Shown piece by piece: positions 6,467-16,937 of a stretch of DNA of 64,000 bases. Positions within the stretch are counted from its first letter, which is position 1. The number at the start of each line of letters is the position of its first letter. Source of the stretch: Actinoallomurus soli (GTDB lineage: Bacteria > Actinomycetota > Actinomycetes > Streptosporangiales > Streptosporangiaceae); NCBI RefSeq assembly GCF_024055715.1, contig NZ_JAMXMV010000001.1, positions 992,001 through 1,056,000 of the forward strand. Direction: 5' to 3'. The notes beneath the pieces were generated by a model, which was given only the letters and a program-made list of their open reading frames with translations, was not told the DNA's origin and ran no database searches. A program made the translations under genes and the position numbers.

Positions 6467-7645
6467 TCAGGGACAGAAGGCACTGAGGACGACGGCGTCG
6501 AGGTGCGCGACCTTGGCGTCGCTGACAGGCTCGGCGGTTGCGGCGATGGCGATCGCGCGCCCGTCCTCGGCGGCGAAGGCCGCCGTGCCGTATCCGGGGA
6601 TTCCACCGTCGTGTCCCCACACCGCGCCGCCACAGGGCAGCGGGGTGCGGAACAGGCCGAGGCCGTACCCCGCGCCTCGCTTGTCCCCGGTGCCGACGGT
6701 GGTGCGCATCTCCTTGAGCTGTGCCGGCTCGAGCAGTCTCCCGCCGAGCAGTGCGGCGAGGTAGCGGATGAGGTCGCCGTTGGTCGAGACGATCTGGCCG
6801 GCGGACCAGGCCCAGGAGGGATCCAGCTCGGTGACGTCGCGCAGCGGGCCTGTCGTGCCCGTCTCGGGGGCATAGCCCCGGGGATGGGCCTCATGGATGG
6901 TCTGGTCGCCCACGATCGGGAAGTAGGTGTGGCGCAGCCCGGCACGCTTGATCACCCGGTTGGTGATCTCTTCGATCACCGGGCGGCCGGTGGCCTTCTC
7001 GATGATCAGCCCGGCGACGATGTAGTTCGTGTTGGAGTACTCCCAGCGCGTGCCGGGACTGAAATGGGCCTTCTGCTTCAGCGCGAGGTCAAGCAGTGTC
7101 CGGGGCTCCATGTAGACGTGCTGGTAGGACAGGTAGTTCCGATCGAAGATGGTGGCGTAGTCCGGCAGGCCGCTGGTGTGCTGGAGGATCTGGCGGACGG
7201 TGATGCGGCGGCCGTCGATGCCGGCCCCGCGGATCAGTCCGGGCAGATAGCTCTCGACCGGCTTGTCCAGGCCGATCCTCCCCTCGCCGACGAGCTGGAG
7301 GATGACGGCGGAGGTGAAGCCCTTGGTGATGCTGCCGATGCGCACCTGTCCGTCGACCGGCACCTTGGCTCTGGTGCGCAGGTCCGCGACGCCCGCGGTG
7401 TAGTCGCGCACCCGCCCGTCGCGGCCGCGGACGGCGGCCAGCACGGCGGGGTATCCGTCTTTGCGTACCAGGTCGTCCAGCCGCCGTTGGATCGCGTCGC
7501 CGGCGGGGCCGGCCGGAGAGCTCGCCCTGCCGGGGGCGTGGCCACGCGCGGTGGAACAGCCGGGCAAGGCCAGAGTGCCGAGCAGGGCGAGCGCGGTGGC
7601 GAGCGCGGCCGGGCGCCGCCCTGATCGCGAACGGTGATGGGGCAT
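6467..7645 (-). CDS. S12-family serine hydrolase, lipoprotein (beta-lactamase/D-Ala-D-Ala carboxypeptidase class C fold)
   Basis: This 392-residue protein begins with a lipoprotein signal: a basic n-region, ALATALALLGTLALPGC with lipobox LPGC, and Cys30 as the predicted lipidated residue. The three serine-hydrolase motifs are present: Ser105-x-x-Lys108 in GSITKGF, Tyr-Ser-Asn in WEYSNTNY (about residue 206), and a C-terminal WGHDGG in place of K-T/S-G. It should act outside the membrane on D-amino-acid peptides, esters or beta-lactams. It is one of three clear paralogues around the lanthipeptide locus and shares with them the segment GxDGxxITVRxxLxHTSGL. It is transcribed in the same direction as the next paralogue, with a 126-base gap in which I see no gene. 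Confidence 0.85.
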   Translation of the reverse strand: MPHHRSRSGRRPAALATALALLGTLALPGCSTARGHAPGRASSPAGPAGDAIQRRLDDLVRKDGYPAVLAAVRGRDGRVRDYTAGVADLRTRAKVPVDGQVRIGSITKGFTSAVILQLVGEGRIGLDKPVESYLPGLIRGAGIDGRRITVRQILQHTSGLPDYATIFDRNYLSYQHVYMEPRTLLDLALKQKAHFSPGTRWEYSNTNYIVAGLIIEKATGRPVIEEITNRVIKRAGLRHTYFPIVGDQTIHEAHPRGYAPETGTTGPLRDVTELDPSWAWSAGQIVSTNGDLIRYLAALLGGRLLEPAQLKEMRTTVGTGDKRGAGYGLGLFRTPLPCGGAVWGHDGGIPGYGTAAFAAEDGRAIAIAATAEPVSDAKVAHLDAVVLSAFCP

Positions 7646-7771: not shown

Positions 7772-8962
7772 TCATGGACGGCTCGGTGACGGGGAGGCGT
7801 GCCCACGGCCGCCGCAGAACTCGGCGATGTAGGCCTTGTCCGTCAGCGCCATCTGCTTCTCCACTCCCCAGCCGCCGTTGACCACCCAGGCGAGCGTGTG
7901 AGCGCCGCCCGGCCGTCCGGCCATGCCGGTGAGGTATCCGTCGAGGGTACCGCCGTGGCCGTACACCGTGACCCCGCAGGGGAGCCTCGTGATGATCACC
8001 CCGAGGCCATACTTGTCGAGGTCCGAGCCCGCGCGGGACCTGGGAACGGGCGTCAGCATCTGCCGCAGGACGGGCCGCGGGAGCAGACGTCCCGCGAGCA
8101 GGGCCGAGACGAAGCGGTTCAGGTCTCCGACGGTCGAGACGAGGTCACCGGAGGCGGGCGCGAAAGTGGGGGTGCGCGCGGTCACGTCCTCGACGGCGCC
8201 GGAGCCCGAGGACGTGTATCCGTGCAGGTACGGAGGATCGATGGACCGCGATGCGCCGGGGAAGTAGGTCGAACGCAGCCCCAGCGGCCGGATGATCCGC
8301 CGGGTTGTCTCTTCGGCGTACGATCGGCCGGTGACCCGCTGGATGATCATCCCGAGCAGGACATAGTCGGTGTCGGAGTAGTTCCAGCCCGATCCGGGAC
8401 GGAACAGCGGGGGATGGGAGACCGCGACGCGGACCAGCGCGCGTGGCGGGACCCGTCGGGACGGATCCCGTTCGAAGGCCTGGCCCAGCTCCTTGTCGTT
8501 CGTGTAGTCGAACAGGCCGCTCGTATGGTCCAGCAACATCCGAACGGTGATCCGCCCCCCGTCGTTGCCCTTGCCGTCGACCAGACCCGGCAGCCACTGC
8601 CCGACGGTGTCGGTCAGCCGGATCCGGCGTTCGGCGACCAGTTGCAGGACCGTCGTCGCGACGAACGTCTTGGTGATGCTGCCGGCCCTGAAGCGCGCGT
8701 CCGGCCGCGGCGGTCCGCCGGTCCGCACGTCGCCGACCCCGATGGCGACGTCGTGGATCCGTCCCGGCCGGCGGGCCTGCGCCAACGCCCCTGGATAGTG
8801 GTTCTGGCGCACGGCCTCGGCGAAGACCTCGCGCAGGGCAGAGTCGTCGTGATCCGCGGCCGGGAGGGAATGCGCCGGAGGTCCGGCGAGCGCCGCGGCC
8901 ATGGCGGCCACCGCCATGACGGCCCGGCGAGAGACTTCGCCACGAGACGGTGTTCGCCCCAT
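7772..8962 (-). CDS. S12-family serine hydrolase, exported (possible Tat signal)
   Basis: The start chosen is ATG 8962, which has GGGAGGG shortly upstream; the frame is open further 5' but those codons look non-coding. The 396-residue product begins with MGRTPSRGEVSRRAVMAVAAMAAAL, here quoted in two parts: residues 1-10 are polar, and SRRAVMAV then a hydrophobic run follow. This resembles a twin-arginine signal cleaved near residue 32. Catalytic motifs are Ser95-x-x-Lys98 (GSITKTF), Tyr-Ser-Asp in WNYSDTDY (Asp in place of the usual Asn) and YGHGGT. It is a paralogue of the gene downstream and of the hydrolase at 14760. It lies divergent to the lanthipeptide precursor, sharing its upstream region. 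A role in maturation or resistance is inference only. Confidence 0.82.
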   Translation of the reverse strand: MGRTPSRGEVSRRAVMAVAAMAAALAGPPAHSLPAADHDDSALREVFAEAVRQNHYPGALAQARRPGRIHDVAIGVGDVRTGGPPRPDARFRAGSITKTFVATTVLQLVAERRIRLTDTVGQWLPGLVDGKGNDGGRITVRMLLDHTSGLFDYTNDKELGQAFERDPSRRVPPRALVRVAVSHPPLFRPGSGWNYSDTDYVLLGMIIQRVTGRSYAEETTRRIIRPLGLRSTYFPGASRSIDPPYLHGYTSSGSGAVEDVTARTPTFAPASGDLVSTVGDLNRFVSALLAGRLLPRPVLRQMLTPVPRSRAGSDLDKYGLGVIITRLPCGVTVYGHGGTLDGYLTGMAGRPGGAHTLAWVVNGGWGVEKQMALTDKAYIAEFCGGRGHASPSPSRP

Positions 8963-9267
8963 CAGCCCTCCCCGGGCTCGGCGCCGGCCCCGTCTGCGGG
9001 ATTCCCGCAACCCGCGTGACACCTGCACGCGACCATTCGATATTGCGGCGATTGCCGTTGCAACAAATGAACCGCAAACCAAGCTAACGTTCTTGTAAAG
9101 CGCAGATCGCGCACTGGCCTGCCTTTGCTGATTAGTTGCATCCCTGTTGCGGTGTTCGTGACTGGGTGAGTGACAATGAAGTCATGACAAGGAGGCCCGA
9201 ACGGTCATATTCGTCCAGGTCCGGATAGATCGTTCCTCGTAAGGCCTGATCAAAGGGGGGATTTCAC
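8963..9267. other. Divergent regulatory region between S12 hydrolase and lanthipeptide precursor
   Basis: This 305-base spacer is richer in A and T (notably 9040-9110 and 9125-9185) than its surroundings. No gene is convincing in it. A 14-codon frame at 9184-9228 contains AAGGAGG internally and lacks its own ribosome site. TTGCGG at 9147-9152 with GACAAT at 9172-9177 (19-base spacing) is the best promoter-like pair I could find for the precursor, and it is weak. Confidence 0.4.
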
Positions 9268-9495
9268 ATGGACAGGGCGATGACGATTCAGGCTGTCGTC
9301 GATGACGAGTTCCGTGCCCAGCTCATGGCGGATCCGACCGCCTTCGGCGCCGGGATCGGTTCGCTGCCCGACCCGATCGAGCAGTCCGGCCGGGAGTCTC
9401 TGGAGTTCTGGGTGAAGGGCGACGCCGGCGAGATCTACGCTTGTCCGAGCACCCATCACTGCAACCACACCTACGCCTGTCACCCGACCTATTAG
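9268..9495 (+). CDS. lanA: Class II lanthipeptide precursor with NHLP-like leader
   Basis: The 75-residue product starts at an ATG with a GGGGGG ribosome site 8 bases upstream. Residues 8-27 (QAVVDDEFRAQLMADPTAFG) resemble the nitrile-hydratase-like leader family: acidic-helix, FRxxL, then DP. Residues 28-54 are an acidic linker ending in KGDAGE. The C-terminus ACPSTHHCNHTYACHPTY (58-75) is the probable core. Cys59, Cys65 and Cys71 alternate with Thr62, Thr68 and Thr74 in a strict Cys-x2-Thr-x2 hexad repeated three times, plus Ser61. Dehydration of Thr/Ser and addition of Cys by the adjacent LanM would give methyllanthionines. The core also has four His and three Tyr nearby, unusual for a lanthipeptide. 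The cleavage site is unknown; the GDAG segment around residues 51-54 is a candidate. Confidence 0.85.
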   Translation: MDRAMTIQAVVDDEFRAQLMADPTAFGAGIGSLPDPIEQSGRESLEFWVKGDAGEIYACPSTHHCNHTYACHPTY

Positions 9496-9518
9496 GCGGC
9501 GGGTGAAGACGCCCGAAT

Positions 9519-9548
9519 GGGCGCGGTCGGCAGCCGTCGACCGCGCCC
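9519..9548 (+). terminator. Strong hairpin between precursor and lanM (attenuator candidate)
   Basis: GGGCGCGGTCG (9519-9529) pairs perfectly with CGACCGCGCCC (9538-9548) over 11 bp with an 8-base loop. It lies 24 bases after the precursor stop and about 110 bases before lanM, with no following T-tract. In ribosomal-peptide operons such a hairpin often lets the short precursor mRNA accumulate while a minority of transcripts read into the synthetase gene. The structure is seen; the role is inferred from position. Confidence 0.6.
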
Positions 9549-9657
9549 GCGTCGAGATTCACGCGCGTCCGCGAACGTGCGCGGACGGAACGGCCATCCA
9601 CCGTTGATCGCGCGATCAGGCTCGCTGACCGTCGCGCACCGAAAGGAGTCTCGACCA

Positions 9658-12600
9658 TTGGGTGATCACTCCTTCGTCGACATCGCCGCCGCCGCCGCGA
9701 ACCTCGCCGAACGTCTGCACGTCGTCGCCAGGCTGGACGCGACCGGACCGGCGAGGCCGGCCGGCCCGCTGCCTCGTTTCGACACCTGGAAGATCGACCG
9801 GATCTCCCGGCGGCTCGCCGTGAAGACCGACGTGAAGACGCCGCGGCCGGCCACGGCCGCCGGTCACGGCCAGGACGGCCTCATGCGGGCGCTCACCGTC
9901 TTCCGGAACCACGAACTCGGCCTGGGCGAGGCCGATGACGACACCAAGGCGGTCTTCGCCGAGGTTCAGCGCTCCTGGCTGCCGACCTACCAGGCCGCGG
10001 TCGGCCGGTTCGACCGTTCCGCCGACGATGCGCCGGACGCGAGTTGGCGGCGGCCCGAGACCTACTACGGCCGGCTCGCCATCGCCTGCGAGCCCTTCCT
10101 GCGCGAGCTCGGTCGCCGGATGGACGCCGCACGGGCGCGTCGTCCCGGCCGGTTCGGCCGCCGCATGACCGAGGGTCTGCAGTGGCACCTCTTCGAGCGT
10201 TTCGAACTGGCACTCGCCTGGGCCGTGGAGGCCGACGGGAAGGTCTACCGCGCCGAGGCGGGCATCGACAGGGAGCAGGCGACCCGCGAGGACTTCCGCG
10301 CGTATCTCGACGCCACATTCGCCGACGCGGCGGCCCATCACCGGTTCCATCTCAGGTTCCCGGTGCTGGGACGCTGGCTGGCGCACGTCACCGCCTTGCT
10401 GGCCGATTTCGGGTGCGAGCTCATCGAACGCCTCGATGCGGATGCCGCGGCGATCGGCCGCGAGATCTTCGGCGAGGACATCTCGTCATTCCTGTCGTTG
10501 CGGCCGGGTCTGTCCGACTATCACGCCGGGGCCCGCAGCGTCGCCGTCATCGAGGCTCGGCTGGCGGACGGCACGACCGGTTCGTTCGTCTACAAGCCGC
10601 GCTCGCTCACCGCCGAGGCGGCGATGCAGGAACTGCTCGGCCGGCTGCGCGACGACGGCGTGCTCGGCTTCGCCCCGCATGTCGTCCTGCGGCGGACGGG
10701 GTACGGGTATGAAGAGCTGATCCCGCCGGGCCGTAACCGGGTGACGACCCGGGGGGAGGCCGAGCGGATCTACCGGGAGCTCGGCGGCCACCTCGGGATC
10801 TTCTACGTGCTGGGCGGTGACGACCTGCACTTCGAGAACGTTCTGGTCGCCGACGGCCATGCCCACGTCTGCGACTGCGAGACCGCCCTCAGCGTGATCC
10901 TGCGCGGTCAGGCCCAACCGCCGGGGACACTGCTCGACTCGGTGTTCAGGACCGGTCTGCTCGAGTGGCCACGCGGGGCGGGCTCCGGTGCGGCCATCCG
11001 GGCCAGCGGCTACTCCGGAGGCGAGGCGTACGAGGTGCCGATGCCCGTGCCCTGTGTCAAAGGGCGGCGCGACAGCTTCCGGATGTCGGTGACGCACGTG
11101 ACCGGCGTACGCGTCGAGCCGGAGACGTACAACCGGGTGTTCCTCGGCGGCACGTTGGTACGGCCGGAGGACTTCACCGAGGCGATCATGGAAGGGTTCG
11201 GCCGGGTGTACGAGTGGTTCGAGGGCCGTCCCGACGCGGCCGTACGCGCGGTGACGGAGACCTTCGGCGGTGCCTCCGTCCGGTACGTCAACTGGGGAAC
11301 CCAGGCCTACGTCGATCTGCTGCAGTACGCCCGGCACCCGAAATGCCTGGTCGACCCCTTGGAGGTCGACCTGCTCCTCGGCACGGTCCGCACCTTCCCG
11401 CAAGTCTGGGACCAGGACGGCCGGCTCGCGGAGCGGGAGGTCGAGTCGATGTGGCGACTCGACGTACCGATCTTCACCGCGGACGCCCGCGGCGGCCCGC
11501 TGGTCCACGACCACACGACGGCGTTGGCGACCGGCCTCGACATCTCTCCGCTCGACCATGCCGTGCAGCGGATCCGGCTGCTGTCCGCGGACAACCGCGA
11601 TCAGCAGCGCAGGTACATCGCGGCCGGCCTGTCCACGAGCGAGGTCGCCACCCCGGCGTTCACGTCCGCCTGCGTCGAGCAGGCGAGCCGGATCGGCGAG
11701 CGCCTGTGCGCCATGCTCCGTGAGCCATCGGAGCCAGCGCCGTGGACGTCCTACAAGAGCGGCCCCGACGGGCCCGTACGGGTCGGCGTCGGCGGCGACC
11801 TGTACGACGGGGCGACGGGCATCGCGCTGTTCCTCGCCTACCTCGACCACATCGCTCCAAGACCGGAGTTCCGGCAGGCGGCCGAACGGGCGCTGTCCCA
11901 CGCCATCGCGGCCGCCGATCGCCGCGAGATCGGCGCCTTCAAAGGGATCGGCGGCCTGATCTACCTGCTCACCCACCTGCACCGCCTGTGGGGCGACCGC
12001 GAGCTGCTGAAGCTCGCGGTCCGCCTGGGCGAGGACCTACGGTCCCGGATCGAGGACGACACGGCACTGGACATCTTCAGCGGTGTGGCCGGCCTCGTCC
12101 CGGTGCTGCTCGGGCTCGCCTCCGAGGCGGACGGCCGGGGCATCGAGCAGGCACGGTCGTGCGCGGAGGTGTTGCTGCGCCACGGCGTCGGGGACGCCGA
12201 CACGCTGAGCTGGCCACCACCCGATCCTCGCGTCGCCTCCGCCGATCTGACCGGATTCGCCCACGGCGCGGCCGGTATCGGATGGGCGCTGATCCGGCTC
12301 GGGCGGCTGACGGACCGGCCGGAGTACGTGACCGCCGGACTCCGGGCCTTCGCCTACGAGGCCCGGCATTTCGACGAGGCGACGCGAGATTGGTACGACC
12401 TGCGCACCCGCCCCGGCGGCTTCCGCCACAACGGCCGCTACTACGCCAACGCCTGGTGCAACGGCGCCGCCGGCATCGGCCTGAGCCGCGTCGCGAGCTG
12501 GGCGATCCTCGGCGGCGAGGATGAGTCCCTGCTGCGCGAGACCCGCTACGCCGTCTCGGCGACGCTACGGAACTTCCCCCGCCTGAGGAACGACACGCTC

Positions 12601-12867
12601 TGCCACGGCCGGTCGGGGAACGCCGAACTCTTCCTGCGTTTCGCCACGTTGCAGGACGAGCCGGTCTTCCGGTTGGAGGCGAACGTGCAGGCGCATGAGC
12701 AGTGGCGGCACTTCGGCGAGACCGAGAACGGCGTCATCGGGCAGGCGGAGGGCGTCCTTCCCGGGCTCATGGCCGGGATGTCCGGTTTCGGGATGCACGT
12801 CCTGCGCCTGGCCCACCCCGACCGGATCCCGTCCCCTCTCCTCCTGGATCCGGTACCTGGAACATGA
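9658..12867 (+). CDS. lanM: Class II lanthionine synthetase LanM
   Basis: TTG at 9658 is chosen as start because AAAGGAG ends 9 bases before it; an ATG at 9517 would begin in the hairpin. The product is 1069 residues, normal for LanM. The N-terminal two thirds is the DUF4135 dehydratase, with a kinase-like LGGDDLHFENVLV near residue 390 and CDCETAL near 405. These phosphorylate and eliminate Ser/Thr of the precursor. The C-terminal part is a LanC cyclase with YDGATGIALF (about 720), FAHGAAGIG (about 865) and the zinc ligands Cys934 (AWCNG), Cys982 and His983 (LCHGRSG). It acts in the cytoplasm on the preceding precursor. Its stop overlaps the ABC ATPase start (ATGA). Family assignment is secure; ring pattern is not predictable from the enzyme. 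Confidence 0.95.
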   Translation: MGDHSFVDIAAAAANLAERLHVVARLDATGPARPAGPLPRFDTWKIDRISRRLAVKTDVKTPRPATAAGHGQDGLMRALTVFRNHELGLGEADDDTKAVFAEVQRSWLPTYQAAVGRFDRSADDAPDASWRRPETYYGRLAIACEPFLRELGRRMDAARARRPGRFGRRMTEGLQWHLFERFELALAWAVEADGKVYRAEAGIDREQATREDFRAYLDATFADAAAHHRFHLRFPVLGRWLAHVTALLADFGCELIERLDADAAAIGREIFGEDISSFLSLRPGLSDYHAGARSVAVIEARLADGTTGSFVYKPRSLTAEAAMQELLGRLRDDGVLGFAPHVVLRRTGYGYEELIPPGRNRVTTRGEAERIYRELGGHLGIFYVLGGDDLHFENVLVADGHAHVCDCETALSVILRGQAQPPGTLLDSVFRTGLLEWPRGAGSGAAIRASGYSGGEAYEVPMPVPCVKGRRDSFRMSVTHVTGVRVEPETYNRVFLGGTLVRPEDFTEAIMEGFGRVYEWFEGRPDAAVRAVTETFGGASVRYVNWGTQAYVDLLQYARHPKCLVDPLEVDLLLGTVRTFPQVWDQDGRLAEREVESMWRLDVPIFTADARGGPLVHDHTTALATGLDISPLDHAVQRIRLLSADNRDQQRRYIAAGLSTSEVATPAFTSACVEQASRIGERLCAMLREPSEPAPWTSYKSGPDGPVRVGVGGDLYDGATGIALFLAYLDHIAPRPEFRQAAERALSHAIAAADRREIGAFKGIGGLIYLLTHLHRLWGDRELLKLAVRLGEDLRSRIEDDTALDIFSGVAGLVPVLLGLASEADGRGIEQARSCAEVLLRHGVGDADTLSWPPPDPRVASADLTGFAHGAAGIGWALIRLGRLTDRPEYVTAGLRAFAYEARHFDEATRDWYDLRTRPGGFRHNGRYYANAWCNGAAGIGLSRVASWAILGGEDESLLRETRYAVSATLRNFPRLRNDTLCHGRSGNAELFLRFATLQDEPVFRLEANVQAHEQWRHFGETENGVIGQAEGVLPGLMAGMSGFGMHVLRLAHPDRIPSPLLLDPVPGT

Positions 12868-13877
12868 CAGAGGGGGAAGGGGTCGTCGAAACCGGTCGGA
12901 TGCGCCGGCCGGAACCGGACGCTCCGCGCCGGTACCAGGACGTTCCCGCCATCCGGGCGACCGGCCTCCACAAGTCCTATCCGGACGTGGACGCCGTGCG
13001 CGGTGTCGACCTCACGGTCGAGCAGGGCGAGACGTTCGGCCTCCTCGGTCCGAACGGCGCGGGCAAGAGCACGATCATCGCGATGCTGTGCACGCTGGCC
13101 GTGCCCACCGCGGGGCGGATCGAGGTGGCCGGTCACGACGCCCGGACCGCGCCCGGCCGCGTACGGCGGAGCCTTGGAATCGTCTTCCAGGAGAGCACGC
13201 TCGACGGGGAGCTCACCGCCGCCGAGAACCTCCGCTTCCACGCCGATCTGTACGCCCTGCCGAGGGCGGGACTGGCCGCCCGGATCGAGGCGATGCTCGA
13301 TCTGGCCGGGCTCGCGGCACGGCGTGACCACCTCGTACGGACCTTCTCCGGGGGGATGCGCCGCCGCCTGGAGATCGCCCGCGGCCTGCTGCACCGGCCA
13401 CGCGTCCTCTTCCTGGACGAACCCACCATCGGCCTGGACCCGCAGGCACGCGACCGGCTCTGGGCCCACCTTCGCGAGGTGCGCGAACGCGAGACGACCA
13501 CGCTCTTCTTGACGACGCACTACCTTGACGAGGCCGAGCGGTGCGACCGCGTCGCCATCGTCGACGAGGGACGGATCGTCGCCCGGGGTGCGCCGGCGGA
13601 GCTGAAGTCGGCCCTCGCCGCCGACCGCATCGACCTGCGCACCGGCGATGACGTGGCGGCGGCCGCGGCGCTCCGCGAGCGCTTCGGCATCGAGGCCGTC
13701 GCCGGACCGCGAGGTCTGCGCGTCCAGGCGGAGAACGGGGCGAGCCTCGTCCCCCGCCTGTGCTCGGGCCTGGACGTTCCGGTCCACGAGGTGACCGTCA
13801 CCAGGCCCAGCCTCGACGAGGTCTTCCTGCACCACACCGGGCGCCACATCCGGGACGAGCCCGGGGGAGGCCACTGA
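12864..13877 (+). CDS. ABC transporter ATP-binding protein, DrrA-type
   Basis: The 337-residue protein starts in the last codons of lanM (ATGA overlap) and is presumably translationally coupled. Walker A is GPNGAGKST (about residues 62-70), the signature is FSGGMRRRLEIARG (about 157-170), Walker B is VLFLDEPTIGLDP, and the switch His is in TTHYLDEAERC. A C-terminal extension of about 90 residues follows the core, as in DrrA/daunorubicin-resistance ATPases. It should drive export of the modified peptide, together with the next gene. It lacks the N-terminal C39 peptidase and the membrane domain of LanT exporters, so leader removal must be done by another protein. Confidence 0.92.
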   Translation: MTEGEGVVETGRMRRPEPDAPRRYQDVPAIRATGLHKSYPDVDAVRGVDLTVEQGETFGLLGPNGAGKSTIIAMLCTLAVPTAGRIEVAGHDARTAPGRVRRSLGIVFQESTLDGELTAAENLRFHADLYALPRAGLAARIEAMLDLAGLAARRDHLVRTFSGGMRRRLEIARGLLHRPRVLFLDEPTIGLDPQARDRLWAHLREVRERETTTLFLTTHYLDEAERCDRVAIVDEGRIVARGAPAELKSALAADRIDLRTGDDVAAAAALRERFGIEAVAGPRGLRVQAENGASLVPRLCSGLDVPVHEVTVTRPSLDEVFLHHTGRHIRDEPGGGH

Positions 13878-14731
13878 TGGCCGGCGGCGCCGCGCCATCC
13901 ACGGCGTACGGGTGCGGCCTCGCCGCCGAACTCCGCGCCGCGCGCATGGTCTGGCAGCGGGAGATGCTGCACTTTCTCCGCGATCGGATCGGGACGCTGG
14001 TGTCCCTGCTGCAGTCTCTGATGTCCCTGTTCATCCTCGGCGTCGGGATGGGAGGGCTCTTCGCCGGCTCCGGCGTGGGGTCCGCGTCGGACTATCTGAC
14101 GTTCCTGTTCCCCGGTGTGCTGGTGCTGGCGGCGCAACCTGCCACGGTCGCCGTGGGCGCGTCCATCGTCTGGGACCGGGAGGACGGTTTCCTCCGCGAG
14201 ATGCTCGTCGCCCCCGTGCACCGGGCCACCCTGCTGATCGGCAGATGTCTCGGCGGCATGACGGTCGCGACCTGCCAGGGCCTGGTGATCCTGGCCGGCG
14301 CCGGACTGCTCCACATCCCCTACCGGCCTGGGATCTTCGGGCTGCTCACCGCCGAGCTGGCGCTGACGTCGCTCACGCTGACGGTGCTGGCCACGACGAT
14401 CGCGGTCTTCGTCCGGCGGCCCCGTACGCTGACGGCCGTGCTGGGCGTGCTGATGGCGCCCCTGCTCTTCCTGTCCGGGACGATGTTCCCGATCAGCGCG
14501 CTGCCGGGCTGGCTGTCGTTGCTCTCCCGCCTTGACCCGCTGACCTACGCCGTGGACGCCATGCGGCGTACCGTCGGAGTCGATCGGCTCGTCCACGGAC
14601 GGGCGATGCTGACCGCGCCGGTCACCTGGGGCGGCCTGCGCCCGGCACCACCGGTCGAACTGGCCGTCGTCGCCGCCTTCACGATGATCGCCCTCGTCGT
14701 GGCCGCCCGGCGCTTCTCCCGGCTCGGCTGA
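13877..14731 (+). CDS. ABC-2 type transporter permease, DrrB-type
   Basis: The ATG at 13877 overlaps the ATPase stop by one base (TGATG). The 284-residue product has six predicted membrane segments: about residues 40-60, 70-90, 115-140, 150-172, 180-200 and 255-275. A MVWQREMLHFLRDR amphipathic stretch before the first one and the PLLFLSGTMFPI loop motif are typical of ABC-2 permeases of the daunorubicin/lantibiotic-resistance group. It forms the membrane channel for the adjacent ATPase and probably exports, or gives immunity to, the lanthipeptide. It is the last gene of the precursor-lanM-ABC transcript; a 28-base gap separates it from the next hydrolase, which could also be co-transcribed. 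Confidence 0.88.
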   Translation: MAGGAAPSTAYGCGLAAELRAARMVWQREMLHFLRDRIGTLVSLLQSLMSLFILGVGMGGLFAGSGVGSASDYLTFLFPGVLVLAAQPATVAVGASIVWDREDGFLREMLVAPVHRATLLIGRCLGGMTVATCQGLVILAGAGLLHIPYRPGIFGLLTAELALTSLTLTVLATTIAVFVRRPRTLTAVLGVLMAPLLFLSGTMFPISALPGWLSLLSRLDPLTYAVDAMRRTVGVDRLVHGRAMLTAPVTWGGLRPAPPVELAVVAAFTMIALVVAARRFSRLG

Positions 14732-14759: not shown

Positions 14760-16010
14760 ATGCCCAGCGTCAGTGGAACATCACAATACGTGAAAAGTGA
14801 AGCTGTGCGGCCGGTCGTGCGAGCGGGCCTGGGGCACCGGCGGCGCCGGATGGCACCGGCAGCGGTCCTGGCGGGTGCACTCGTAGTCGGGGCATGCGGG
14901 ACGGCCGCGTCACCGCATGCGGTCGTCTCGCGGCCGTACGACCAGAGGCGGCTGCAGCACGACGCCGACGCGATCGTCGCGACGGGAGTGACGGGAGTCC
15001 AGGCACGTGTGACCGGCGACGGCGGTGACCTTGTCGCCACCAGCGGCGTCGGTGACGTTCACTCCCGGCGACCGGTCAAGCCCGATGATCACTTCCGGAT
15101 CGGCAGCTCCACCAAGACGTTCACGGCGACGGTCATCCTGCAGCTGGCCGGAGAGAAGAGACTGTCGCTGGACGACACGGTGGAACACTGGTTGCCGGGC
15201 GTGGTGCGCGGCAACGGCAACGATGGCAGCAAGATCACGATTCGCGAGTTGCTCCAGCACACCAGTGGCCTGAACGACGGCCCCGGTGGACATGAGACGC
15301 CGTCCGACTATTACCGGCACCGGTTCGACATCGTCCCGCCTGACGAGGTCGTGAAGGAGGCCATGAAGCACCGGCCGTCCTTCGCGCCCGGGACCTCATG
15401 GAAGTATTCGAACGCCGGCTACATCCTGCTCGGGATGATCATCAAGCGGGTGACCGGTCACCCGTGGTCCGAGGAGGTCGATCGGCGCATCGTCCGTCCG
15501 CTCGGCCTGTGGAACACGACCGTGCCGGGCCTCTCCCCGGACCTTCCGGCCCCGCATCCCGCGAGCTATGACCGTTTCCCGGACGGCACGCTCATCGACG
15601 TCACCCTGACCCGTGAGGCCTACACCGCCGACTCCGCCGGCGCCATGATCTCCACCACCGCCGACCTGGACCGCTTCTACCGCGCTCTTCTCACCGGCAG
15701 GCTGCTGCACCCGGCGGAGCTGGCCGAGATGAAGCGGACCGTCCCCGTGAACGCGAAGGTGCGGAAGGCCTTTCCCGGCGCGCGGTACGGGTTCGCGCTG
15801 TTCTCCATCCCGCTGTCCTGCGGCGGACGTTACTGGGGCCATGGCGGGGACATCCTGGGCTTCATGACGAGGAACGGCTTCACCGAAGACGGCCGCCGGG
15901 GCGCCGTGGTCTCGATGTCCACCGAGTTCGAGGGCTCCGACGCCGCCGCGGAGCGTCAGGGGAAAGCGGCCCTGGCGCTGATCGACCACGCACTCTGCCG
16001 AACCGGCTGA
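14760..16010 (+). CDS. S12-family serine hydrolase, lipoprotein
   Basis: As called, the product is 416 residues. A GTG at 14817, which gives a short basic n-region before the hydrophobic stretch, is an equally good start. The signal ends in LVVGAC with Cys46 as lipidated residue in the longer form. Motifs are Ser116-x-x-Lys119 (GSSTKTF), Tyr-Ser-Asn in WKYSNAGY and WGHGGD. GNDGSKITIRELLQHTSGL is shared with the two paralogues at 6467 and 7772. It follows the ABC permease by 28 bases on the same strand, so it is likely transcribed with the lanthipeptide genes. The family trims D-Ala-D-Ala, hydrolyses esters or acts as a D-aminopeptidase. A role in immunity or product processing is possible but unproven. 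Confidence 0.83.
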   Translation: MPSVSGTSQYVKSEAVRPVVRAGLGHRRRRMAPAAVLAGALVVGACGTAASPHAVVSRPYDQRRLQHDADAIVATGVTGVQARVTGDGGDLVATSGVGDVHSRRPVKPDDHFRIGSSTKTFTATVILQLAGEKRLSLDDTVEHWLPGVVRGNGNDGSKITIRELLQHTSGLNDGPGGHETPSDYYRHRFDIVPPDEVVKEAMKHRPSFAPGTSWKYSNAGYILLGMIIKRVTGHPWSEEVDRRIVRPLGLWNTTVPGLSPDLPAPHPASYDRFPDGTLIDVTLTREAYTADSAGAMISTTADLDRFYRALLTGRLLHPAELAEMKRTVPVNAKVRKAFPGARYGFALFSIPLSCGGRYWGHGGDILGFMTRNGFTEDGRRGAVVSMSTEFEGSDAAAERQGKAALALIDHALCRTG

Positions 16011-16316: not shown

Positions 16317-16937
16317 ATGGATCGCGGCAAGAAACTGATAGCCGCACTGGGCCTGACTGTGCTCGGTGCCGGTGGTTTCGGCGGGGGTCTTCAAGGCGCC
16401 ACGGCGATGGCTCTGACCAGTGCCCCTCCTGTCCGGACGGTGGCCGGCGCCGGACTTCCCCGCAGTGAGCCGCCCCCCTGGTGGGATGGCCGATCGGGGC
16501 ACGGCCGGTACGGAGAAGGCCGGTACGAGAGCAGCCGCCATGAGAGGGGCCGGTACGAGAGCAGCCGGTACGAGAGGAGCCGGTACGGACCAAGCCGGTA
16601 CGGAGAAGGCCGCTACGAGAGCAGCCGCCATGAGAGGGGCCGGTACGAGAGCAGCCGGTACGAGAGGAGCCGGTACGGACCAAGCCGGTACGGAGAGGGC
16701 CCGTTCGGACCCGGCCGGTACGAACCCGGTCGGTACGAAGGCCGCCGGTATGGACCAGGCCGCTATGTCGGTGTGCCGTACGAGCGCACCAGGATCCGGA
16801 GTTCCGAGTCGGAGCGCACCAGGTCCGAGCGCACCAGGTTCCGGGAAACCGGCTACGGGGGCGGCGGGTACAGCCGTCACACTTCCGAGCGCGGATCGAC
16901 TCGAAGCAGGTCGTCCGAGACCACCAGGTACGGATGA
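16317..16937 (+). CDS. Secreted Arg/Tyr/Ser-rich tandem-repeat protein
   Basis: The 206-residue protein begins at an ATG with GGAGGG 5 bases upstream and has a signal peptide (residues 1-32, basic start, hydrophobic core, AxA-like end at ATAMA). After a Pro/Trp linker, residues 62-150 are built from RYE/SRY/GRY units. A 30-residue module (GRYGEGRYESSRHERGRY then ESSRYERSRYGPS) is present twice in full and once in part. It is very basic and Tyr-rich, with no Cys. I do not recognise a family. The composition suggests a surface or envelope-associated, intrinsically disordered protein binding acidic polymer. The antisense and +1 frames are also open across the repeats, but only this frame has a ribosome site and a signal. 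Confidence 0.6.
   Translation: MDRGKKLIAALGLTVLGAGGFGGGLQGATAMALTSAPPVRTVAGAGLPRSEPPPWWDGRSGHGRYGEGRYESSRHERGRYESSRYERSRYGPSRYGEGRYESSRHERGRYESSRYERSRYGPSRYGEGPFGPGRYEPGRYEGRRYGPGRYVGVPYERTRIRSSESERTRSERTRFRETGYGGGGYSRHTSERGSTRSRSSETTRYG
16506..16700 (+). repeat. 90-bp tandem repeat inside the secreted repeat-protein gene
   Basis: Units start at 16506, 16596 and 16686. The first two are complete (90 bases, 30 codons) and differ at very few positions, for example CGGTAC versus CGCTAC in the unit's third codon group. The third is cut short at about 16700, where the sequence diverges into related GRY/ERT units. The near-identity at DNA level points to recent unequal crossing-over or slippage, so copy number is likely variable among strains. 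Confidence 0.85.

Follow-up and report, generated by a model that had tools for sequence, protein, structure and literature searches.

A predicted Cys/Thr hexad lanthipeptide of Actinoallomurus soli and Microbispora as a conserved branch of the cinnamycin lineage

The class II, type B lanthipeptides of the cinnamycin group (cinnamycin, duramycin, kyamicin and mathermycin) have cores of 19 residues, and the thioether bridges of cinnamycin, C1–T18, S4–C14 and C5–T11, are nested by index. Cinnamycin has been described as a globular peptide with overlapping rings, one of which comprises 18 residues, and its AFA site is thought to be cleaved by the secretory signal peptidase (PMC2843593). The core motif of the family is given as CxxxCSxGPFTxxCDGxTK (PMC12837462). 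CinX is described as acting on Asp15, which it hydroxylates, and CinN on Ser6 and Lys19, the residues of the lysinoalanine bridge (PMC6974636). Deletion of cinX is reported to yield inactive deoxycinnamycin, and in the cin cluster an attenuator is located in the gap between the precursor and LanM genes (PMC5408092).

Here we describe a related locus of Actinoallomurus soli, contained in a stretch of 64,000 nucleotides (contig NZ_JAMXMV010000001.1, positions 992,001 to 1,056,000) that is referred to as the window. The locus has in common with the cinnamycin group its leader family, a CinM-type LanM, a LanT/LanH exporter, a hairpin between the precursor (A) and LanM (M) genes, a cysteine as first core residue, the residue order C-[S/T]-C-T-C-T and a threonine near the C-terminus. 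However, its core is only 17 residues long and evenly spaced, at a pitch of three, and lacks Asp15, Ser6, Lys19 and the GPxT motif; likewise, the locus lacks CinX, CinN and the regulator R1, and contains two S12 peptidases instead. The features of the locus are as follows.

7772–8962, minus strand: HydA, S12-family serine hydrolase (PF00144), likely exported, with SITK, YSD and HGG motifs (profiles, PDB relatives); start codon placed at 8962 by prediction, reading frame open to 9082
8963–9267, no strand assigned: divergent upstream region common to HydA and the precursor (aligns in 4/4 loci)
9255–9260, plus strand: G-run (GGGGGG) ahead of the precursor ATG, probable ribosome-binding site
9268–9441, plus strand: leader peptide of 58 residues, cinnamycin/duramycin type, ending in EIYA (profile matches, alignment); cleavage predicted after Ala58
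9442–9495, plus strand: core peptide CPSTHHCNHTYACHPTY with the hexad, plus stop codon (translation, core alignment)
9518–9549, plus strand: hairpin in the precursor–LanM gap, a possible counterpart of the cin attenuator (shuffle test)
9658–12867, plus strand: LanM, CinM-type lanthionine synthetase of 1069 residues, TTG start predicted (profiles, tree, alignment)
12864–13877, plus strand: LanT, ABC transporter ATPase, overlapping LanM by ATGA (profiles, locus comparison)
13877–14731, plus strand: LanH, ABC-2 type permease, overlapping LanT by TGATG (profiles, locus comparison)
14760–16010, plus strand: HydB, a second serine hydrolase of the S12 family, with SSTK, YSN and HGG motifs and an N-terminus resembling that of lipoproteins (profiles, PDB relatives)

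Precursor, leader and synthetase

Translation of positions 9268–9495 on the plus strand gives a product of 75 residues, exactly as an earlier note on this DNA had stated, in which Cys59, Thr62, Cys65, Thr68, Cys71 and Thr74 follow one another every three residues; both the reading frame and this hexad are thereby confirmed. Taking residues 59–75, which follow Ala58, as the core and Cys59 as core position 1, the hexad is formed by C1, T4, C7, T10, C13 and T16. The note had also counted four histidines and three tyrosines in the core: the four histidines are present, but only two of the tyrosines lie within residues 59–75, the third, Tyr57, being N-terminal of the core. Were three cysteines and three threonines distributed at random over 17 positions, an alternating series would arise with a probability of 1.6e-5 (about 1 in 60,000) at a pitch of three and of 1.7e-4 at any even pitch, figures that apply to a pattern chosen after being seen; the conservation of the hexad among orthologues, described below, is the stronger test.

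The leader is of the cinnamycin/duramycin type. It scores above the curated cut-off with PF19398 (DurB-like; 52.9 bits, cut-off 26.6) and above the cut-off with NF033431, the NCBIfam model of the cinnamycin family (50.3 bits, cut-off 35). In contrast, the NHLP-type leader that had been proposed from the sequence was rejected, as both NHLP models remain under their curated cut-offs (NF038399, 20.1 bits against 40; PF14407, 17.9 bits against 48). The leader terminates in IYA, which resembles the AFA site of cinnamycin.

The assignment as a class II lanthipeptide precursor is supported by the adjoining LanM, which appears intact: it matches TIGR03897 with 488 bits (cut-off 304), and the CylM residues K274, D347, H349, N352, D364, D252, H254, R506 and T512, as well as the zinc ligands C911 and H912, have identical counterparts when counted on the alignment, while the third zinc cysteine aligns in LicM2. 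These are the CylM residues that are both named in PMC4550811 and covered by the alignment and, as they are kept, the enzyme looks functional. LanT and LanH constitute an exporter of the CinT/CinH kind, as determined by locus comparison. The hairpin between the precursor and LanM genes, which occupies the place corresponding to the cin attenuator, is more stable than all of its shuffled counterparts (z −5.7, 0/200 shuffles equally stable); those at the three orthologous loci are less striking (z −2.0 to −2.8, 3–6 of 200 shuffles equally stable).

The hexad loci and canonical cinnamycin-type clusters

A search with PF19398 of 345 genomes of the order produced 40 matches across 38 genomes, which we classed as 30 canonical, four hexad and six other. 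Besides that of the window, hexad precursors were identified in three of the 15 Microbispora genomes (G069, G071 and G075). These orthologues are 63–65% identical to the window precursor, and their cores are CPGTHHCIHTHVCRKTY, CPATHQCIHTHVCRKTY and CPATHHCIHTHVCRKTY. An alignment of homologues had been proposed as a check on the hexad, and it bears the pattern out: all six residues are invariant in the four orthologues, as are P2, H5, H9 and Y17, while positions 3, 6, 8, 11, 12, 14 and 15 (seven of the 11 non-hexad positions) vary. Each Microbispora core contains exactly three threonines, three cysteines and no serine, so that three methyllanthionines would consume all of them; Ser61, a possible fourth dehydration site, occurs only in the window core. 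The loss of three waters that had been predicted agrees with these compositions. For the window core, the calculated mass is 1970.761 Da in linear form, 1916.729 Da following three dehydrations and 1898.719 Da should Ser61 be dehydrated as well.

Over the whole frame, comparison of the window with its three orthologues (our own Nei–Gojobori script, applied to few sites) resulted in dN of 0.19–0.23 and dS of 0.42–0.57, values that fit a translated gene. Within the 17 core codons, the three Microbispora pairs are constrained (dN 0.03–0.05, dS 0.22–0.74), whereas constraint is not clear in the pairs that include the window (dN 0.20–0.26, dS 0.23–0.38, the two being equal in one pair).

No hexad relatives were detected in viral contigs or in plasmids; a scan of genome contigs returned two Microbispora records and a canonical Marinactinospora one. 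A 394-genome sample of the class, searched with a precursor profile and PF19398, contained no further hexad core; within it, the core of G650 is canonical and no hexad-type core was seen at G640. Consistent with the earlier view that the core is unlike described lanthipeptides, six fragments of the hexad cores had no match in the open-licence literature, and the peptide is not mentioned, among the matches listed, in open-licence literature on cinnamycin or lanthipeptides with Microbispora. The hexad precursor represents a real and conserved branch of the cinnamycin lineage, which we found in no open-licence paper among the matches listed.

To compare the clusters, tblastn was run over 37 loci, comprising 26 with a canonical CinM, the four hexad loci, and seven others (L074 and L075–L080) that lie outside the comparison. 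Of the 30 canonical matches, 26 entered the count: those of G248, G233 and G253 were covered only by short stretches, and L074, the second match in G257, has none of the genes sought in the stretch examined. While canonical clusters have the order (R1)-N-A-M-X-T-H, the four hexad loci have the order HydA-A-M-T-H-HydB, with HydA divergent. CinN and CinX are present at all 26 canonical CinM loci and at none of the four hexad loci; conversely, HydA and HydB are present at all four hexad loci, relatives of at most 45% identity being found also at L063 and L079. R1 is likewise missing from the hexad loci (0/4) but, as it was found in only 10 of the 26 canonical loci, this says little. The absence of CinN and CinX is a property of the locus, since the genome of the window carries both in another cluster. 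Searching the 15 Microbispora genomes for CinX genome-wide, without a positive control, gave no match.

The hexad cores correspondingly lack Asp15, Ser6 and Lys19, with C13 followed by His or Arg, and none of the elements CS, GPFT, CDG and TK of the cinnamycin motif is found in them. Position 6 is not strictly serine in the canonical loci either, two of the 26 (L055 and L056) having threonine. Given that deoxycinnamycin is inactive, a core without Asp15 should not act like cinnamycin.

The window LanM is 80–81% identical to its Microbispora orthologues and 66% identical to the CinMs of two genomes from the genus of the window, G001 and G002. The hexad LanMs form one clade (100/100) inside the CinM family, and this clade joins the canonical CinMs of G001 and G002 with 91/90 in a first tree and with 99/97 in a second, to which four non-cin LanMs were added; the second tree omits four near-duplicate LanMs, has very long outgroup branches and does not resolve the base of the CinM family. 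The canonical CinM encoded by the genome of the window falls in a different branch of the family. This gene belongs to a second, canonical cinnamycin-type cluster, L049 (G000:C12:23549-23785), with the core CASTCSAGPLTILCDGTTK, CinN and CinX. The hexad gene appears to have been remodeled from the cinnamycin family, and the simplest history would be that a canonical ancestor lost CinN and CinX and that its core was remodeled.

Beyond the block itself, gene sharing between window bases 1–30000 and the Microbispora loci (14–20 kb) is restricted to S12 and ABC paralogues of 29–40% identity (window genes 7, 22 and 23). The intergenic region between HydA and the precursor can be aligned in all four loci, with a mean column identity of 81%. 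Together with the close orthology of the peptidases, described below, and the lack of other sharing outside the block, this indicates that HydA-A-M-T-H-HydB is a conserved unit.

Three-Cys cores of another kind are also matched by PF19398. They belong to a group of six loci, L075–L080, that are probably venezuelin-like class IV loci. Cores such as CRNTCVSGWTIRCDGYTL, at L075, L076, L078, L079 and L080, match the profile. LanL was identified in four of the five neighboring large ORFs scanned (L075, L078, L079 and L080); the fifth, the L076 ORF, the frame of which may be wrong, had no match. These cores differ from the hexad cores in being made by LanL, in keeping the CDG motif and in having another leader, and the presence of LanL beside them indicates that PF19398 takes in cores of both class II and class IV. 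At L074 (G257:C2:1093167-1093391), the 11.7 kb examined contain a precursor of cinnamycin-like type, CISTCSYGPTTIICDGATKVG, but nothing that matches LanM, CinN, CinX or a transporter, and L071 (G267) encodes a canonical cinnamycin-type core bearing a natural four-His tail, CASTCSAGPITFLCDGTTKHHHH.

Ring pattern

The order of the hexad core, C-[S/T]-C-T-C-T, is that of the cinnamycin cores, and the spacings C1..T4 and T10..C13 are kept, so that a nested pattern 1–16, 4–13 and 7–10 would be the direct counterpart of the cinnamycin rings. With three cysteines and three threonines, this order would arise by chance alone in 1 of 20 cases. We consider it most likely that the three methyllanthionines are nested, as C1–T16, T4–C13 and C7–T10.

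TxxC is a common ring motif. The earlier note had proposed two small TxxC rings, T4–C7 and T10–C13, inside an outer ring C1–T16 (Cys59–Thr74), a pattern that would follow from the local sequence and not from descent. Its outer ring is retained in the nested reading; the two small rings are possible, both TxxC pairs being invariant in all four orthologues, but nesting is the better guess because the residue order is that of cinnamycin. According to PMC11251773, where bridges form is governed mainly by the precursor sequence and not by the synthetase, which speaks for the small rings; a rule-based predictor published there omits nested bridges on the ground that lanthipeptides have not shown any. 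Both points weigh against nesting. Geometry was dropped as an arbiter: in a coarse closure model (three to four starts per topology, some ending badly strained), all six Cys–Thr pairings close, that with the two small rings included, and nesting is thus not favored. Against the small rings, LanM belongs to the CinM family, the known products of which are globular with overlapping rings (PMC2843593), and both the order and the two spacings are those of cinnamycin. Weighing these points, we regard the two-small-ring pattern as possible but somewhat unlikely, and the nested pattern as perhaps roughly twice as probable.

The flanking peptidases and the nature of the product

HydA and HydB share SxxK, YxN-like and HxG motifs with S12 D-Ala-D-Ala carboxypeptidases and D-stereospecific peptidases such as R61 and alkaline D-peptidase. 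YxN is the usual motif in S12 enzymes. Both proteins have SxxK and HGG, HydB having YSN or YCN; unlike these relatives, they are tied to a lanthipeptide cluster, and HydA has YSD in all four loci. Their best PDB relatives are the D-Ala-D-Ala carboxypeptidase 9s7k, the alkaline D-peptidase 4y7p and the S12 peptidase 3wwx, with R61 behind.

Orthologues of HydA (77–80%) and HydB (73–75%) are encoded beside the hexad gene in three of the 15 Microbispora genomes, the same three that have the hexad; the next-best matches in these 15 genomes are 57% for HydA and 48% for HydB, and HydA relatives of up to 57% are also present in Microbispora genomes without the hexad. Among the eight genomes of the genus of the window, the best HydA match besides the window's own is 47%, while HydB relatives of 56–57% occur in four other genomes and as a second copy in the genome of the window. 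Thus, in these 23 genomes of two genera, orthologues above 70% are found only beside the hexad gene, although more distant relatives, with identities of up to 57%, are frequent.

A role of HydA and HydB in immunity or self-protection is weakly favored. No example of lantibiotic immunity conferred by DD-peptidases was found in the open-licence literature, among the matches listed. Since the enzymes and residues for lipid binding are missing and two peptidase genes flank the cluster, a different target is suggested. Overall, we think it probable that the locus directs the synthesis of a contracted cinnamycin-type lanthipeptide with three nested methyllanthionines and a changed target, with the peptidases perhaps protecting the producer.

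The precursor would descend from a cinnamycin-type ancestor, and LanM would dehydrate Thr62, Thr68 and Thr74 and join them to Cys71, Cys65 and Cys59, respectively; the resulting rings T4–C13, C7–T10 and C1–T16 would span 10, 4 and 16 residues, a contracted form of the cinnamycin arrangement. The leader would be removed by a cut after Ala58 and the product exported by LanT/LanH. With Asp15, Ser6 and Lys19 missing together with their enzymes, the product would have neither hydroxy-Asp nor a lysinoalanine bridge, and it should not bind phosphatidylethanolamine in the manner of cinnamycin. The S12 peptidases would most likely be self-protective, either trimming the D-Ala-D-Ala ends of wall precursors or hydrolyzing the product. 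A bolder version, in which three concentric methyllanthionine rings at a three-residue pitch form a thioether-stapled hairpin, and a cinnamycin cluster has shed its lipid-binding chemistry and moved to a D-Ala-D-Ala wall target with two extracytoplasmic DD-peptidases protecting the producer, seems to us speculative and distinctly unlikely.

The peptidases might instead serve maturation, for example by removing Tyr17 beside the D-configured residue derived from T16, or by removing the leader. That both accompany the hexad gene in all four loci, and that their PDB relatives 9s7k, 4y7p and 3wwx include D-specific peptidases, would suit such a role. However, the invariance of Tyr17 in all four cores would be odd if this residue were merely discarded, and a leader ending in IYA, like an AFA site thought to be cut by signal peptidase (PMC2843593), would not need a dedicated peptidase; we therefore consider maturation unlikely.

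The proposal of a metal-binding lanthipeptide, with histidine side chains along one face of a ladder of rings, derives from the four histidines of the window core, and each orthologue has three to four; it was rejected as very improbable because H5 and H9 are the sole invariant histidines, the remaining ones being replaced by Gln, Tyr or Arg or placed elsewhere, and because the conserved block contains no metal gene. Least credible of all is that the locus is a cinnamycin cluster in decay that no longer yields a functional product: although CinN and CinX are missing from the loci and the core codons alone reveal no clear constraint between the window and Microbispora, the kept catalytic residues of LanM, the hexad and gene order common to all four loci, and the 80–81% identity of LanM across genera argue against it.

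The hexad cluster looks like a natural experiment in lanthipeptide target change, in which the ring-making machinery was kept, the pharmacophore and two tailoring enzymes were lost together, and a gene pair was gained. It hints at a new activity and at immunity based on peptidases, and the hexad core offers a small, symmetric substrate for testing whether an enzyme of the CinM lineage or the peptide sequence sets the ring pattern.

Elsewhere in the window, positions 16317–16937 on the plus strand contain an ORF of 206 residues with repeated RYE-rich units, which matches no Pfam or NCBIfam model. A third gene of the S12/beta-lactamase family (6467–7645, minus strand), which has no orthologue of its own at the Microbispora hexad loci, adjoins HydA, and its product is 39–40% identical to the Microbispora HydA proteins.
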